From: Microcaldota archaeon
Lineage (GTDB): Archaea > Micrarchaeota > Micrarchaeia > Micrarchaeales > Micrarchaeaceae
Direction: 5' to 3'
DNA length: 64,000 nt
Assembly (NCBI GenBank): GCA_021787495.1
Contig: JAJYLX010000001.1
Coordinates: forward strand, 124,001 to 188,000
The notes beneath the pieces were generated by a model. It saw only the letters and a list, made by a program, of their open reading frames with translations, made no database searches and was not told the origin of the DNA. Positions within the stretch are counted from its first letter, which is position 1, and the number at the start of each line of letters is the position of its first letter. Positions 57,323 through 64,000 of this stretch are shown here, piece after piece. The translations under genes and the position numbers were made by a program.

Positions 57323-58606
57323 GGTGGTCTGGAGGGTTTGTGAAATCCGACCGGCCTTAAGGCCGGGGATGAAACGAACCTCCAGCAGGGTATAAAATAT
57401 TATAGGAAAGTGTATAAACATTTACTGTACTTCACTATGTGATGCTGTGCTATCATACGTCTTCCCGATTTACCCCAACAAAGAGCAGAAGGCAGCCCTC
57501 GAAACGGCGTTCGACCTCTGCAGGTTCACCTACAACGCGCTGCTGGAGGAGCTTCAGCGGCAGGGCAGACCAGACAGGGGTGCGGTACAGCACAAGATAG
57601 TGGAACTGGAAGAGAAGCATCCGGAACTCCGCAACGTCTATTCGAAGACGCTCCAGTACGAATCGTACAGGCTCTTCTCGAACCTGATGGCACTGTCGAG
57701 GCTGAAGAGGAACGGGAGGAAAGTAGGGAAACTCAGGTTCAAGGGCAGGGACAGGTTCAGGACGATAACCTACAACCAGTCGGGGTTCACGTTCGAGAGG
57801 AAGACCGAAAAGCGCGCTACCATCCACCTCTCTAAGATCGGAGACATCAGGGTCAAGACCCACAGGGAGATAGTAGGAAGGACAAGGCAGGTCGTAGTCA
57901 AGAGATCGGCTGACAGATGGTACATCATACTGCAGACCAATGGCAGGAGGACCGACCTCGCCGCAGGGAACGGGGTAATCGGGATAGACCTGGGGATTGA
58001 GGCCTACCTAACGCAGGATAATGGCGTGAGAGTGGAAAACCCGCGTACCCTGCGGGAGTGCCTTGACGGGCTGCGCGCCGTGCAGCAGAGGCTGTCCAGA
58101 CAGAAGAAGGGAAGCAGGAACAGGGAGAAGACGAAGATGAGGCTGCAGAGGCTGCACGAGAAGATAGCGAACAAGAGGAAGGACTTCATACAGAAGACGA
58201 CGACAGATCTCATAAGGAAGAACAGGTTCATCGCGGTCGAGAATCTCAACATAAAGGAGATGATGGAGAGACCATACCGCAATGCAAGGGGGATTGCGGA
58301 TGCCTCCTGGGGGATGTTTCTGCAGGTGCTTCGCTACAAGGCTGGGAGCGCTGGTTGCGAAGTCGTGGAAGTCGACCCAAGGGGAACATCGATGGCGTGC
58401 AGCAATTGTGGCGCAATGCACGACATGCCGCTGTACATCAGGGAATATAAATGCGACGTGTGCGAGATGTGCATGGATAGGGACCAGAACGCCGCGATAA
58501 ACATACTGAAGAGGTCTTCAGAGGGCCCGGAACGGGCCCGTGCCGAGGATAGGAAGGCTTATCCGATGAAACAAGAAGCCTCGGGCTTCAGCCCGAGGTA
58601 GTTCAC
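57323..58606 (+). mobile_element. TnpB-only IS605-like element, complete
   Basis: 1284 bp delimited by comparison with the truncated copy at 22304-22555: both begin GGTGGTCTGGAGGGTTT and end CCCGAGGTAGTTCAC. There is no terminal inverted repeat; instead each end has a hairpin, a perfect CCGGCCTTAAGGCCGG palindrome near the left end and CCTCGGGC-TTCA-GCCCGAGG (58579-58598) at the right. This is the structure of IS200/IS605 elements. Only tnpB is carried; TnpA must come from elsewhere. The right end overlaps the 3' end of tnpB and would be the scaffold of the guide RNA, with flanking DNA (after 58606) as guide. Confidence 0.87.
57447..58601 (+). CDS. tnpB: RNA-guided nuclease TnpB (IS605 OrfB family)
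   Basis: 384 residues, full length. N-terminal helical/wedge part (FPIYPNKEQKAALETAFDLC), the split RuvC nuclease with all three acidic residues: GVIGIDLGIEAYL (I), FIAVENLNIKEMM (II), MDRDQNAAINIL (III), and the zinc finger ACSNCG...CDVCEMC between II and III. In the zinc part the usual CPxCG is CEMC. TnpB homologues cut DNA at sites specified by a right-end RNA. GTG 57447 is the start. The last residues (EASGFSPR) are encoded by the right-end hairpin, so RNA and protein share sequence. No frameshift seen; probably active. Confidence 0.93.
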   Translation: MLSYVFPIYPNKEQKAALETAFDLCRFTYNALLEELQRQGRPDRGAVQHKIVELEEKHPELRNVYSKTLQYESYRLFSNLMALSRLKRNGRKVGKLRFKGRDRFRTITYNQSGFTFERKTEKRATIHLSKIGDIRVKTHREIVGRTRQVVVKRSADRWYIILQTNGRRTDLAAGNGVIGIDLGIEAYLTQDNGVRVENPRTLRECLDGLRAVQQRLSRQKKGSRNREKTKMRLQRLHEKIANKRKDFIQKTTTDLIRKNRFIAVENLNIKEMMERPYRNARGIADASWGMFLQVLRYKAGSAGCEVVEVDPRGTSMACSNCGAMHDMPLYIREYKCDVCEMCMDRDQNAAINILKRSSEGPERARAEDRKAYPMKQEASGFSPR

Positions 58607-58765: not shown

Positions 58766-59809
58766 TTGGATTCCAGCATGGAAAGGCGGAGGGAGAAAGG
58801 CAAAGGGAGAGCCGCTGCGCTTATCAGGCGGGAAGAAAGCCTGTTTGTCAGGGAAGATCCAGGATATAAGTGGAATGCGGGCGACAAGTCAGCTGAGCTG
58901 CAGCATGCATTCGTTGCCGCGCTCCACGGGGAGCAGGCTGTGCTGGTGATAGGGCCGAGCGGCGTCGGCAAGACCCTTGCGGTCAGGCAGTTCGCATACG
59001 ACTTCGGCAGCAGCAAGATTGACATGCAGCAACAGGGGAGCCCCGCTAGGGTTGACCTGCGCAAGATAGTGGGGCGCGACTATGCAGCCCCGGTGGCGTT
59101 CATAAGGTGCCAGGGGACGCCTGACACGACGTATTGGGAGCTCTGCGGTCACTGGCTGCCGGTGGACGGCGGCGCCACGTTCATAGAGGGCCTGCTGCCG
59201 GAGGCGGTCCGCCTCGCTAACGAGCGTGGGCTTGCAGTGCTTCTCATAGACGAGATAAACACAATCAGACCGGAATACCAGAAGGCGCTGAACTCCCTGC
59301 TGTCAGACAGGCTCATCGTGTTCGAAAACAGGTCTTGGCAGCTGGACGAGAAGGCCAGGCTGCTGGTGGTAGGCACTATGAACGATTTCGGCCATGGATA
59401 CGGAGGGATAAGCGAGCTCAATGAGGACCTGCAGCGCAGGTTCGGCCTGAAGGTGGTGCTTGACTACCCTGTCGAAGAGGAGGAAACGGCGGTGCTCAGG
59501 GGCTACACGAACGACGTGGGCCTGATAAGGAAACTGATACTGCTCGCCAACCATACAAGGGGATCAAGGGCCACGAACGCGGCGGACCCGGTCGCGCCTT
59601 TCACAAGGCCGATCTCCACAGCGGATCTCACCAACTTCCTGGTCGCATACAGGGCATCCAATGAGCTGTACGACGACGCGTCATACGCGCTCAGCAGTGC
59701 GCTGAGGCTGACCCTCCTCAACAAGTATCACAGCCAGGAGGAACATGAGGCCATGGTGGCGATAAGCCAGAAGATAACGGACATATTCGGCATCGAGATT
59801 ACGAAGTAA
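58766..59809 (+). CDS. AAA+ ATPase, MoxR/CbbQ-like
   Basis: A 347-residue AAA+ protein with Walker A VIGPSGVGKTLAVRQF (residues about 61-76), sensor region FIRCQGTPDTTYWELCGHW, Walker B LAVLLIDEINTIRPEYQ, NSLLSDR, sensor 1 LVVGTMNDFG, arginine-finger candidate in LNEDLQRRFGLKV, and a C-terminal lid. The 'GTpDtt..dL.G' and 'NEDLqrRF' patterns are those of MoxR/NorQ/CbbQ ATPases, which work with a VWA protein to remodel or activate a target. Here the VWA protein is two genes downstream. TTG 58766 fits the TATA at 58729-58737; ATG 58778 is possible. First gene of the ankyrin operon. Confidence 0.88.
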   Translation: MDSSMERRREKGKGRAAALIRREESLFVREDPGYKWNAGDKSAELQHAFVAALHGEQAVLVIGPSGVGKTLAVRQFAYDFGSSKIDMQQQGSPARVDLRKIVGRDYAAPVAFIRCQGTPDTTYWELCGHWLPVDGGATFIEGLLPEAVRLANERGLAVLLIDEINTIRPEYQKALNSLLSDRLIVFENRSWQLDEKARLLVVGTMNDFGHGYGGISELNEDLQRRFGLKVVLDYPVEEEETAVLRGYTNDVGLIRKLILLANHTRGSRATNAADPVAPFTRPISTADLTNFLVAYRASNELYDDASYALSSALRLTLLNKYHSQEEHEAMVAISQKITDIFGIEITK

Positions 59810-59822
59810 CAGGTTATGCGCG

Positions 59823-60491
59823 ATGAATCTAGGTAAAGCCATTGCGGGCCTAAGGAATAATGTAGAACCCATCGCAGCCGCTGACCTGATTGCTGCAGTG
59901 AAACAAAACGACGTAAAGAAGCTAAAGGGATACCTCGACCGCGCCGCCGACCCCAACCTCCAGAACAAATTCGGCGAGACCGCCCTCCACTGGGCCGCTA
60001 GTCAGGGCCACCCCGACCTCGCCGCACTCCTCCTCGACCGCGCCGCCGACCCCAACCTCCAGAACGAAATCGGCGACACCGCCCTCCACTGGGCCGTCTT
60101 CTGGAATCACCCCGACCTCGCCACGCTCCTCCTCGACCGCGCCGCCGACCCCAACCTCCAGGACAAAAATGGCAGCACCGCCCTCCACTTTGCCGCATCA
60201 GAAGGCTTCTTAGACTGCGTCGTGCTCCTCCTCGACCGCGCCGCCGACCCCAACCTTAAAAACAAATTTGGCAACACCGCCCTCGACATCGCGCTTAGGG
60301 AATACAACAAGACCCATGATGATAAGTACAAAAAGATCGCAGACATGCTGGAGAGGGCAATGGAAGAGAGGCGCCTCGAAGACAAGATGGAGTCAAACAT
60401 AAAGAGGCTGATAAGAGGTAAACGAGATATCCCGCCAATCCTCGACAAGTGGCTGGTCGTCCCGAAGGGGAAAGGGAGGGAGAAAAAGTGA
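59823..60491 (+). CDS. Ankyrin-repeat protein 1
   Basis: 222 residues: a 20-residue head, DLIAAVKQNDVKKLKGYLDR as a capping half-repeat, then four ankyrin units each carrying DRAADPNLQ and TALHWAA/TALHFAA (the last TALDIAL), and a conserved basic C-terminal tail (KIADMLERAMEERRLEDKM...RGKRDIPPILDKWLV). No membrane segment. Ankyrin arrays bind other proteins. It stands between the AAA+ ATPase (14 bp) and the VWA gene (6 bp), so it is likely an adaptor or target of that machine. Its units are nearly identical at DNA level to those of the two later paralogues. Confidence 0.93.
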   Translation: MNLGKAIAGLRNNVEPIAAADLIAAVKQNDVKKLKGYLDRAADPNLQNKFGETALHWAASQGHPDLAALLLDRAADPNLQNEIGDTALHWAVFWNHPDLATLLLDRAADPNLQDKNGSTALHFAASEGFLDCVVLLLDRAADPNLKNKFGNTALDIALREYNKTHDDKYKKIADMLERAMEERRLEDKMESNIKRLIRGKRDIPPILDKWLVVPKGKGREKK

Positions 60492-60497
60492 TTATAA

Positions 60498-62327
60498 ATG
60501 GGAGATAAAGAAAGCCATGAAAAAGATGCTGAGTCTGTAGGGCCTGGAGGCGCTGCCCTGCCGGCATTTGTACAGCAGCTTGAACAGGAGCTTGCACTAT
60601 TCAGCAACCTTGTCTATAAGAATGTGAACCTGCACTTTACAGATGCTGTTGAGACGGCTTCAACAAATTCCAGCACCATACTCTTCAATCCGTTCTCCGA
60701 AGTCATAGACGGAGACGGGGCCGCGAGAGCGCTCCTCCAGCATGAGGAGGCGCACATACTGTTCAAGAGCAACAGCGAGGTGGTCAGGGCGCTGGAGGCA
60801 GAATATCCGGAATACGCAGTGCGCGATGCCGACCAAAAGTCTCTGGTGTCCACCGTGTGTAATCTCCTCGAAGATTACAGGGTAGAGTACTTGTGGCATG
60901 AGCTGTTCCCTGGCAGCATAGCCAACTTCAGCAGGCTGTATTCCTCCACTATAAGCGGAATTGAAAAGGAGATAGCAGGCGCCAGCGGCGCAATCGATGA
61001 CCCTGTAGGCGCGTTGGGGGTAGCGAGGTTCAGCCTCATCGGCGGCACAATGAGGCTGGAGAATTATCTATCAAGCGATGTCAGGCCCGTATACTCACGG
61101 CTTTGCAGCGAACTCATGAAGCTTGAGGGGAAGGATGGTACCGCTACCTATTTCGTCGGAAAGAACGTGCTCGACATATTCAGGGAATGGGAGAAGGGCA
61201 GAACGCATGCTGACGATTCGCATGATCTGAGGAACAGGCTTCAGGCGCTGCTTCTCAGGATGCCAATGCTGGCAGACGAATCAGCCTCTTTGGAGGTGGA
61301 GAACTCTGAAGGGAGAGGCGAACTCTCTTCTGCAGTGGCAAATGGCGAGGCGTCTGCGCTGCGGGAGAGCTCGCAGCACATAGAAAATCAGCTTAGGGAT
61401 ATGTTCGGCTCCGAGGTCAAAATAGCAACGATCAAGAAGATGCTCAGGCTGGGGGGCACGGCCACGCCGTACACCTCCGCATCCGACTCAGGACTGCGAG
61501 GCACGGCCGCATCAGGCAACACTCCGAATGTCTGTGCAAGCACCGCATACACCGCCGGTAAAAGAGCGTACACTGGTCCACCCATCGCTCCAAGCATGCG
61601 CATCAAGCGATCTATTGAGGAGATAAGGAGGGGCAATCAGATAGACAGGCTGGAGGAGACGGACAGCGGCCCGCGCATAGACATGAAGAAGCTGCTGCGC
61701 TATGGTGCAACGCGCAACCCGCGCGACCTGGAGCGCATCTACCTGAGGAGGACCGTGCCTAACGGGGTGGAATTTATCATAGCCCTTGACGACTCCAGCT
61801 CGATGGGCGAAAGTGGAAAGATTGATATCGCAAAGCATGCGATTGCCAGCATCTACGATAGCGTGCAGGGCTCGCCTCTCGTTAAGGTAAGGCTGGTCGG
61901 CTTCTATGGCGCTGACGACGGGCCGCACGTCTTTGAGATGGACAGGAACAGGCTGATGTCGCTCAATACCATGGGCAGGACCCCGACCGACAAAGCCCTC
62001 TATCATATCGGCACGCTCATACAGCGCGGTAAGGGGGGCGACGACCCTGTCGTGCTGCTCGTGACCGACGGGCTGCCGGACAGCGACGCAAGCACTAAGG
62101 CCGCGCTGTCGCACCTGGCCAGCAATCCGAGAGCCAAGGAATTCACGCTCTTCGTGTCGCCGGATGCGGAGTATGCAAAGAACAGCAAAAAAATAAAGGA
62201 CACGTTCTCTGCCAGCACTGCTCTCTATCATATAAGCAGCATGGCGGGCGTCCTGCCGGTGCTGGAGGGCATAGTCGCCAGCGACATAAGCAGGAGGGCT
62301 TCAAAAGTCAGGACAAGAGGATGTTGA
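60498..62327 (+). CDS. VWA-domain protein with N-terminal HExxH metallopeptidase-like domain (NorD/CobT-like)
   Basis: 609 residues. Near residues 78-130 it has LLQHEEAHILF (HExxH) followed 35 residues later by CNLLEDYRVE, the pattern of the zincin-like N-terminal part of NorD/CobT-type proteins, where the later Glu/Asp could be the third metal ligand. Residues about 270-400 are low-complexity Ser/Ala/Gly. The C-terminal VWA domain starts near 425 with the MIDAS motif LDDSSSMGES (DxSxS), then MGRTPTDKAL with the third MIDAS Thr and LLVTDGLPDSD. Pairing with a MoxR-like ATPase in one operon is typical of the family; the target is unknown. No signal peptide. Confidence 0.87.
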   Translation: MGDKESHEKDAESVGPGGAALPAFVQQLEQELALFSNLVYKNVNLHFTDAVETASTNSSTILFNPFSEVIDGDGAARALLQHEEAHILFKSNSEVVRALEAEYPEYAVRDADQKSLVSTVCNLLEDYRVEYLWHELFPGSIANFSRLYSSTISGIEKEIAGASGAIDDPVGALGVARFSLIGGTMRLENYLSSDVRPVYSRLCSELMKLEGKDGTATYFVGKNVLDIFREWEKGRTHADDSHDLRNRLQALLLRMPMLADESASLEVENSEGRGELSSAVANGEASALRESSQHIENQLRDMFGSEVKIATIKKMLRLGGTATPYTSASDSGLRGTAASGNTPNVCASTAYTAGKRAYTGPPIAPSMRIKRSIEEIRRGNQIDRLEETDSGPRIDMKKLLRYGATRNPRDLERIYLRRTVPNGVEFIIALDDSSSMGESGKIDIAKHAIASIYDSVQGSPLVKVRLVGFYGADDGPHVFEMDRNRLMSLNTMGRTPTDKALYHIGTLIQRGKGGDDPVVLLVTDGLPDSDASTKAALSHLASNPRAKEFTLFVSPDAEYAKNSKKIKDTFSASTALYHISSMAGVLPVLEGIVASDISRRASKVRTRGC

Positions 62328-63064
62328 TGAACGAGACAGTACCCGTCACAGCCGATGACCTCATCGCCGCAGTGAAGCAAAACGACGTAAAGAAGCTAAA
62401 GGGATACCTCGACCGCGCCGCCAACCCCAATCTCCAGGACAAAGATGGCGACACCGCCCTCCACTCGGCTGCATCAAAATGTCGCTCAGACTGCGTCGCC
62501 CTCCTCCTCGACCGCGCCGCCGACCCCAACCTCCAGAACGAAAATGGCGTCACCGCCCTCCACTTTGCCGCATCAGAAGGCTTCTCAGACTGCGTCGCCC
62601 TCCTCCTCGACCGCGCCGCCGACCCCAACCTCCAGAACAAAAATGGTGACACCGCCCTCCACTGGGCCGTCTTCTGGAATCACCCCGACCTCGCCGCCCT
62701 CCTCCTCGACCGCGCCGCCGACCCCAACCTCCAGGACAAAAATGGCGACACCGCCCTCCACTGGGCCGTCTGGCAGGGCCACTCAGACTGCGTCGCACTC
62801 CTCCTCGACCGCGCCGCCGACCCCAACCTCCAGGACAAAGATGGCGACATCGCCCTCGACATCGCGCTTAGGAAATACAATGAGACCCATTATGATAAGT
62901 ACAAAAAGATCGCAGACATGCTGACGAGGGCAATGGAAGAGAGGCGCCTCGAAGACAAGATGGAGTCGAACATAAAGAGGCTGATAAGAGGTAAACGAAA
63001 CATCCCACCAATCCTCGACAAGTGGCTGGTCGACCCGAAGGGGAAGAGGAAGGAGAGAGGATGA
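62327..63064 (+). CDS. Ankyrin-repeat protein 2
   Basis: 245 residues with the same plan as protein 1: DLIAAVKQNDVKKLKGYLDR cap, then five ankyrin units (DRAA[D/N]PNLQ...TALH), and the shared basic tail ending DPKGKRKERG. The extra unit relative to its paralogues is one of the near-identical 33-residue repeats. The ATG at 62327 overlaps the VWA stop codon by one base (TGATG); ATG 62321 is also in frame. The stop overlaps the next ATG (ATGA). Confidence 0.93.
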   Translation: MNETVPVTADDLIAAVKQNDVKKLKGYLDRAANPNLQDKDGDTALHSAASKCRSDCVALLLDRAADPNLQNENGVTALHFAASEGFSDCVALLLDRAADPNLQNKNGDTALHWAVFWNHPDLAALLLDRAADPNLQDKNGDTALHWAVWQGHSDCVALLLDRAADPNLQDKDGDIALDIALRKYNETHYDKYKKIADMLTRAMEERRLEDKMESNIKRLIRGKRNIPPILDKWLVDPKGKRKERG

Positions 63065-63705
63065 CGATGAAGAACGCAGAACCAATCACAGCCGCTGACC
63101 TGATTGCTGCAGTGAAACAAAACGACGTAAAGAAGCTAAAGGAATACCTCGACCGCGCCGCCGACCCCAACCTCCAGGACGAAATCGGCGACACCGCCCT
63201 CCACTTTGCCGCATCAGAAGGCTTCTCAGACTGTGCCGCACTCCTCCTCGACCGCGCCGCCGACCCCAACCTCCAGGACAAAAATGGCGACACCGCCCTC
63301 CACTGGGCCGTCTGGCAGGGCCACTCAGACTGCGCCGCCCTCCTCCTCGACCGCGCCGCCGACCCCAATCTCCAGGACAAAAATGGCGACACCGCCCTCC
63401 ACTGGGCCGCATCAAAAGGTTGCTCAGACTGCGCAGCCCTCCTCCTCGACCGCGCCGCCGACCCCAACCTTAAAAACAAATTCGGCGACACTGCCCTCGA
63501 CATCGCGCTTAGGAGATACAACGAGATCCATGATGATAAGTACAAAAAGATTGCAGACATGCTGGAGAGGGCAATGGAAGAGAGGCGCCTCGAAGACAAG
63601 ATGGAGTCAAACATAAAGAGGCTGATAAGAGGTAAACGAGACATCCCGCCAATCCTCGACAAGTGGCTGGTCGACCCGAAGGGGAAGAGGAAGGAGAGAG
63701 GATGA
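63061..63705 (+). CDS. Ankyrin-repeat protein 3
   Basis: 214 residues, beginning MTMKNAEPITAADLIAAVKQ, with four ankyrin units and the same basic tail. ATG 63061 is chosen because it overlaps the previous stop as ATGA; an open frame back to 63022 is inside the coding region of protein 2. The last unit carries LKNKFGDTALDIAL like the last unit of protein 1, whereas protein 2 has LQDKDGDIALDIAL. Confidence 0.93.
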   Translation: MTMKNAEPITAADLIAAVKQNDVKKLKEYLDRAADPNLQDEIGDTALHFAASEGFSDCAALLLDRAADPNLQDKNGDTALHWAVWQGHSDCAALLLDRAADPNLQDKNGDTALHWAASKGCSDCAALLLDRAADPNLKNKFGDTALDIALRRYNEIHDDKYKKIADMLERAMEERRLEDKMESNIKRLIRGKRDIPPILDKWLVDPKGKRKERG

Positions 63706-63799
63706 CGTATGCCAGCGCTTCATACTGCTTTCCATAGTGTAGGGCATCGGTATAAAAATTTTACAAACCAAACGATAAGAGAACACAAAAGTGGGGAAA

Positions 63800-64000
63800 A
63801 TGATCGGCAAGCAAAAACAGATGGAAATGTCTGAAGGGAGGAAAGCGCAGCAAAGGATTGATCCGCGGTATGATTCCGCAGCCAAGGGATTCGATCAGGA
63901 CAGGGCAGAGATGCCATACATACTGCGGCAGCTGCACGAAGCCTCAAAGATCAAGAGGCGCGAATTGCATTACTATGGCTCGCTCCTGAGGCAAGGGTTT
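63800..64000 (+). CDS. Unknown protein, N-terminal part (runs off the window)
   Basis: An open frame from ATG 63800 to the window end (67 codons) reads MIGKQKQMEMSEGRKAQQRI, then DPRYDSAAKGFDQDRAEMPY and ILRQLHEASKIKRRELHYYG. GTG 63791 in the same frame is an alternative start. It is charged and helical with no known motif. A TATA-like GGTATAAAAATT (63749-63760) precedes it, so it may have its own promoter although it continues the ankyrin operon's direction. Confidence 0.6.
   Translation, partial: MIGKQKQMEMSEGRKAQQRIDPRYDSAAKGFDQDRAEMPYILRQLHEASKIKRRELHYYGSLLRQGF

Follow-up and report, generated by a model that had tools for sequence, protein, structure and literature searches.

A mobile island in Micrarchaeota combines a MoxR-type ATPase and a putative metallopeptidase–VWA protein with shuffled ankyrin-repeat genes

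Two-gene cores made of a MoxR ATPase and a metallopeptidase–VWA protein are known from jumbo phages, where they have been proposed to act in the assembly of virions and in processing (PMC7824862), and CobS/CobT-like pairs are carried by haloarchaeal tailed viruses (PMC8651126). The available sections of three further papers describe conflict systems in which a MoxR–vWA core is joined by a third, variable component and by diversified sensors (PMC7159879, PMC8195603, PMC10907252). MoxR, vWA and ankyrin are all mentioned in PMC8195603, but the ankyrins in its available sections are animal proteins. Here we describe a five-gene operon of a Microcaldota archaeon, located in a 64,000-nucleotide stretch of contig JAJYLX010000001.1 (positions 124,001 to 188,000; hereafter the window), in which such a core is interleaved with ankyrin-repeat genes. 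No match to a MoxR–vWA–ankyrin arrangement was found in the open-licence PMC full text, which is weak evidence of novelty and agrees with a preliminary description of the locus as an undescribed combination. We tentatively favor the view that the operon belongs to a mobile island whose product is a machine for target-selective remodelling, and probably proteolysis, of proteins, with swappable ankyrin adaptors and probably for defence or other conflict.

The operon spans 58766–63705, and its genes, all on the plus strand, follow the order ATPase, ANK1, HExxH–VWA, ANK2, ANK3; the first two intergenic gaps measure 13 and 6 nt, and at the last two junctions the genes overlap by 7 and 4 nt. The coordinates of the open reading frames (ORFs) and their Pfam domains agree with the five tightly packed or overlapping one-strand genes of the preliminary description, which had extended the operon to 64000; its true end is 63705. 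To determine how widely this arrangement occurs, profiles of the VWA protein and of the ATPase were searched against 301 genomes of the phylum Candidatus Micrarchaeota, in which the window genome is referred to as G000. Specific VWA orthologues were found in 5 of the 301 genomes, all of the window's family, and the weaker matches elsewhere were generic VWA proteins. ATPase orthologues were found in G000, G002, G010, G018, and G019 at E<1e-100, versus about 1e-10 at best for generic MoxR proteins, and the next matches within the family were more than 90 orders of magnitude weaker. Combined, six genomes of one family carry the ATPase, the VWA protein or both; two of the six are assigned to Candidatus Micrarchaeaceae / Micrarchaeota, in line with the assumed DPANN membership.

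In all five carriers with a readable neighbour, the ATPase gene or the VWA gene lies next to ankyrin genes. The order is ATPase–ANK–VWA–ANK–ANK in G000, ATPase–VWA–ANK–ANK in G018, and ATPase–ANK, at a contig end, in G002. In G019, ATPase–VWA ends one contig and VWA followed by four ankyrin genes ends another, so continuity there is inferred; the assembly apparently broke within a long low-complexity GTGTDEEGT linker of this genome's VWA gene (L028:8373-9665, L027:8235-9473), which would account for both contig ends. The largest set was found in G010 (YP4.bin88), where 15 ankyrin genes, the ATPase–VWA pair and 23 further ankyrin genes follow one another. The linkage that the preliminary description proposed is thus conserved, since homologous pairs in related genomes do lie next to ankyrin genes. 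Chance linkage was rejected by a product of placement probabilities of about 8e-10, a rough figure that assumes independence and is indicative only. Carrying the core and having any ankyrin match were weakly associated (p=0.04); the argument rests on physical linkage together with the shared tail described below, and not on simple co-occurrence.

The ATPase (347 aa; 58766..59809, plus strand; alternative ATG at 58778) is MoxR/CobS-like, matches Pfam AAA_5 (E=3e-17) and contains a Walker A motif GPSGVGKT, a Walker B motif LLIDE, and the motif NEDLQRRF. Its profile matches in the PDB were Midasin, CbbQ, NorQ, and CobS, and its best phage family was phrog_249 (CobS-like, annotated as porphyrin biosynthesis; E=2e-23 to 2e-26). 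The HVTV-1 ATPase also falls into phrog_249 (E=4.5e-54), and an hhalign comparison with it gave only 68% probability and E=5e-5. The ATPase of G010 (L025:5711-8152; 813 aa) has an internally duplicated AAA module with two near-identical Walker A/B sets.

The second core protein (609 aa; 60498..62327, plus strand) joins a zincin-like N-terminal domain to a C-terminal VWA domain (VWA_2/VWA) with a metal ion-dependent adhesion site (MIDAS). It carries the predicted zinc-binding motif HEEAH at residues 82-86 (60741..60755, plus strand), the motif NLLEDYRVE at residues 122-130 (60861..60887, plus strand), in which E125 is the candidate third zinc ligand, and the MIDAS motif D-x-S-x-S at residues 431-435 (61788..61802, plus strand), followed by TPT at 495-497 and TDG at 523-525. 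The VWA_2 match of the window protein (E=6e-4) is under the Pfam cut-off, and the domain is clear in orthologues, down to E=3.5e-11. HExxH and the N, E, D, R, and E of NxxEDxRxE are kept in all five orthologues, and the MIDAS motifs are conserved in those read, as expected for the HExxH plus MIDAS protein that had been proposed. Because both of the former motifs are kept in all five, the protein is a likely candidate for an active zincin. A structural model of the protein (mean predicted local distance difference test score [pLDDT] 68; domains 70–90) had NorD of NorQD among its top PDB matches, and its top viral matches in BFVD were full-length phage CobT-like VWA proteins (E about 1e-17). Global template modelling scores against CobT-like proteins were low because the domain arrangement is uncertain; direct profile comparison supports the VWA part, and two of six VWA-protein rows matched phrog_1576 (best E=6e-6).

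The nearest counterparts of the core are the phage CobS/CobT-like pairs of MoxR and metallopeptidase–vWA proteins. Like the phage and archaeal-virus pairs, it is a two-gene core with the same domain order in the VWA protein, an ATPase that matches phrog_249 and a VWA model that can be aligned with phage CobT-like proteins along its length. Unlike them, it lies in a chromosomal island of Micrarchaeota with housekeeping flanks (aminoacyl-tRNA synthetase and ribosomal genes) and ankyrin arrays, and sequence identity is low. No relative of the ATPase or the VWA protein was found among viral contigs at the sensitivity used; this, the weak similarity of the phage collection on the VWA side and the housekeeping flanks led us to reject a viral origin of the whole island. 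Comparisons with Thermus phage P74-26 were weak on both the ATPase and the VWA sides and were not used, and the VWA match in AB571791 has DUF3150, and not the ATPase, as its neighbouring gene.

The preliminary description had related the pair to NorQ–NorD and CbbQ–CbbO. The relationship of the AAA+ and VWA folds stands and extends to CobS–CobT, whereas a specific kinship with NorQD or CbbQO does not, the phage pairs being nearer. The matches of the ATPase to CbbQ, NorQ, and CobS and of the VWA model to NorD would suit a pair that activates an enzyme or acts as a chaperone of metal insertion, as NorQD, CbbQO, CoxDE, or CobST do. However, searches for CobN (PF02514) and for the COX1/NorB superfamily (PF00115) were negative in all six carriers, whereas the same searches were positive in 5 and 8 of 14 control genomes, respectively. 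RuBisCO and CO dehydrogenase were sought in the neighbourhood only, and no gene for either adjoins the operon. Activation of a cobaltochelatase or an NO reductase was therefore rejected, and with no enzyme gene adjacent and expanded ankyrin genes as neighbours, an activator of any of these kinds is very improbable. Ankyrins in place of a target enzyme, as originally suggested, is what the carriers show.

We then examined the ankyrin genes themselves. In G010, 38 of them lie on one strand from 689,425 to 723,757 (34.3 kb) of a single 928,770-bp contig, with the ATPase–VWA pair inside the array, and consecutive ankyrin genes overlap by 11 nt at 34 of 36 junctions. Thus, 3.7% of the chromosome of one carrier consists of shuffled ankyrin genes, although streamlined DPANN genomes rarely spend space. 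An AbiEii toxin-like gene (L074:3405-5212, minus strand) with a weak AbiEi antitoxin-like partner lies about 8 kb upstream of this array. N-cap and tail are alike across the array genes, and the number of repeats varies from gene to gene. Among 209 well-registered repeats there are 203 different sequences and 184 different seven-position faces; 139 of the repeats match best a repeat of different rank in another gene, and each gene draws its best matches from 1 to 8 genes, mostly 3 to 5.

The same pattern was found in the window, where ANK1 (222 aa; 59823..60491; Ank_4 E=2e-32), ANK2 (247 aa; 62321..63064; Ank_2 E=7e-64), and ANK3 (214 aa; 63061..63705; Ank E=5e-32) are all on the plus strand. 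The ATG of ANK3 lies inside the stop of ANK2 (ATGA), and the longer ORF (227 aa) that opens at GTG 63022 is a product of mechanical calling only. At the nucleotide level, ANK1 repeat 2 and ANK2 repeat 3 are identical at 93 of 99 positions, ANK2 repeat 4 and ANK3 repeat 2 at 96 of 99, and ANK2 repeat 2 and ANK3 repeat 1 at 92 of 99. The ankyrin genes are close paralogues, that is, mosaics of shared, reordered repeats. Sequence entropy is maximal at repeat positions 14, 11, 15, 4, and 6, on the canonical ankyrin binding face. The proportion of nonsynonymous differences (pN) at the variable face is 2.6 times that of the framework, and its ratio to the synonymous proportion (pN/pS) is 0.73 versus 0.44 for the framework (pairs at most 25% different). 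Measured on carrier ankyrins only, the face is relaxed or varied, short of proof of positive selection. The mosaic repeats and variable face support the earlier suggestion of fast-changing, interchangeable partners. Designed ankyrin repeat proteins (DARPins), in which positions 1, 3, 4, 6, 14, and 15 are randomised, serve here as a working analogy only: variation falls on largely the same positions, with position 11 in addition, while the carrier ankyrins, unlike DARPins, are natural, genomic, and provided with a constant tail.

This tail extends past the last capping repeat and is common to the ankyrin set of each carrier. In the window it was located at 60369..60488 in ANK1 (...MESNIKRLIRGK..DIPPILDKWLV...), at 62942..63061 in ANK2, and at 63583..63702 in ANK3, all on the plus strand; the three share the same tail, and a related one occurs in G002, a genome of the same genus (common pattern ..I...IR....L.DKWL). 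The tail of G019 is different again. In G010 the motif is LxLKPxIxxxLRT, with both L residues and R present in 37 of 37 aligned tails and T in 36 of 37 at a synonymous divergence of about 0.5. When a profile of the G010 tails only was run on held-out ankyrins, its top matches were seven proteins of carrier genera, three of G040, three of G018, and one of G002, and the VWA-adjacent ankyrin pair of G018 was marginal. G040 belongs to the genus of G018 and had no detected core gene in an assembly that is 71% complete. In G020, G042, G056, and G068, nothing follows the cap repeat in the sampled ankyrins; those of other non-carriers have unrelated ends. One protein of G056, a relative without the system, is 1514 aa long (L079:7001-11545, minus strand); it comprises about 29 ankyrin repeats, has a P-loop-like GPRYSGKT in its N-terminal part, and is possibly a STAND-like NTPase–ankyrin. 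In the predicted ankyrin structure, most residues of the domain have a pLDDT above 90, and residues 209–243 are below 50 and form a separate helix. The tail may be a flexible docking peptide.

Given that ankyrin repeats are prone to recombination and that the island is mobile, the amplification might have followed from repeat instability close to a mobile island, with no joint function. This is hardly to be expected, given that the tail residues are kept in nearly all copies despite the synonymous divergence, that several genera show the arrangement, each time at another locus, and that solo ankyrins elsewhere in G002, G018, and G019 bear tails resembling those of the local set. The constancy of the tail could also be read in another way, with the ankyrins as clients: the motor-protease would read the tail and cleave, unfold, or release varied effectors, for example against a partner cell. 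A constrained tail on an otherwise varied protein, predicted to be disordered, would suit a processing signal. In the available sections of PMC7159879, a metallopeptidase cuts a C-terminal peptide off small proteins that diverge rapidly, and for the relatives of the pair in jumbo phages, processing of structural proteins has been suggested (PMC7824862). Nevertheless, the ankyrin N-termini read had no obvious signal peptide or other export signal, as judged by eye without a predictor, and no cleavage site could be identified. We consider the ankyrins somewhat unlikely to be clients; as adaptors or as clients, they fit the same facts, and the data do not separate the two strongly.

The island is mobile. 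In G000, a lone TnpB and the operon sit between threonyl-tRNA synthetase (ThrRS) and ribosomal protein S8e, with ThrRS and TnpB on the upstream side and, 3' of 63705, a small ORF followed by S8e and further housekeeping genes; S8e and the other downstream housekeeping genes are presumptive names, assigned by inspection of the sequences. In G001, a genome of the same genus, the site is empty: ThrRS and S8e are adjacent, with 812 bp between the matches and the same small ORF. The TnpB (57447–58601, plus strand) is an OrfB_IS605 protein with a Cas12f1-like TNB domain; perfect hairpins lie at 57351-57366 and 58579-58598, and no adjacent TnpA was seen. In G002 the ThrRS–S8e interval holds a pilin-like/LamG-like gene, read across contig ends C30/C34 (L119, L120), and this interval may be an insertion hotspot. 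The VWA gene of G001 adjoins isoleucyl-tRNA synthetase (IleRS), and the ATPase gene of G002 is near tRNA-Lys. Within the genus, identity is 50% for the VWA protein and 60% for the ATPase versus 78% and 84% for ThrRS, and VWA identity is 57% between G010 and G018 and 39% between G000 and G010 at similar ThrRS distances (64% and 63%). On these comparisons, the core moves or diverges faster than the genome, because its identities are low relative to those of ThrRS.

Mobility and patchy distribution would also suit a MoxR-vWA ternary conflict system of the kind described by Kaur et al. (2020), in which the ankyrins would sense invaders and the zincin would act as effector or relay, with killing or dormancy of the infected cell in place of target degradation. 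Like the VMAP, iSTAND, and TERNS3 systems, the island encodes MoxR and vWA together with a variable third component, and pairs with such a component and diversified sensors are described in the available sections of PMC7159879 and PMC10907252. However, a Pfam scan of the window operon found no VMAP, iSTAND, TERNS3, or EAD domain, the remaining genes having Ank families only. Furthermore, the third component consists of separate ankyrin genes, the zincin is N-terminal to VWA, unlike most effectors of such systems, and the host is a DPANN archaeon, whereas such systems occur mainly in multicellular bacteria. A ternary system of this kind is thus an unlikely explanation, slightly more doubtful than ankyrins as clients.

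In the target-selective machine that we favor, the AAA+ protein would form a MoxR/CobS-type ring with the HExxH–VWA protein, whose MIDAS domain would link the ring to substrate, as the family relationship to NorQD and CbbQO suggests. Each ankyrin protein, with its own recognition face of shuffled repeats, would be a binder, and the constant C-terminal tail (LxLKPxIxxxLRT in G010), absent from the sampled non-carrier ankyrins, would dock it on the shared core. The AAA+ motor would then remodel the captured protein, and the zinc peptidase would probably cleave it. Interchangeable adaptors on one machine are proposed because variable binding domains with a constant appendage are multiplied around one motor and a predicted protease. 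The likeliest use would be conflict, with recognition of virus, mobile-element, or partner-cell proteins, because MoxR–vWA cores with diversified sensors have been described in that context; it would explain the sporadic distribution, mobility, fast divergence, and expansion of the repertoire. A more specific form of this proposal, in which arrays rearranged by repeat and whole-gene recombination plug via one tail into the motor-protease as a combinatorial repertoire for immune-like or partner-directed degradation, is possible, if less likely than not.

Several observations weigh against this proposal. The system is carried by only six genomes. In one of these, G001, the VWA orthologue opens a contig and has IleRS but no ankyrins downstream, and the 87%-complete assembly yields no Ank_2 match, so that ankyrins are perhaps dispensable or unassembled there. 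A tail motif universal to the carriers was ruled out, since the G010 profile did not separate the tails of G019 and G000 from background. Positive selection at the binding face is not supported, as pN/pS stays below 1 (0.43-0.83 by the pairs used), and natural ankyrins generally vary at these same repeat positions. With the described conflict systems the island has only the core in common, none of their other domains having been found. In PADLOC, the best ATPase match was partial (E=8e-4), the VWA protein had none, and the ankyrins matched repeat-containing models only; a known defence system was therefore rejected for want of a significant match to the core.

If the ankyrins are indeed adaptors, the carriers would hold a natural, diversified library of binders on one unfoldase–protease, a protein counterpart of specificity-storing arrays. 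This would have implications for what the widely annotated, unexplained CobS/CobT-like pairs of phages do, and it would open a way into the study of conflict in symbiotic archaea that are uncultivated.

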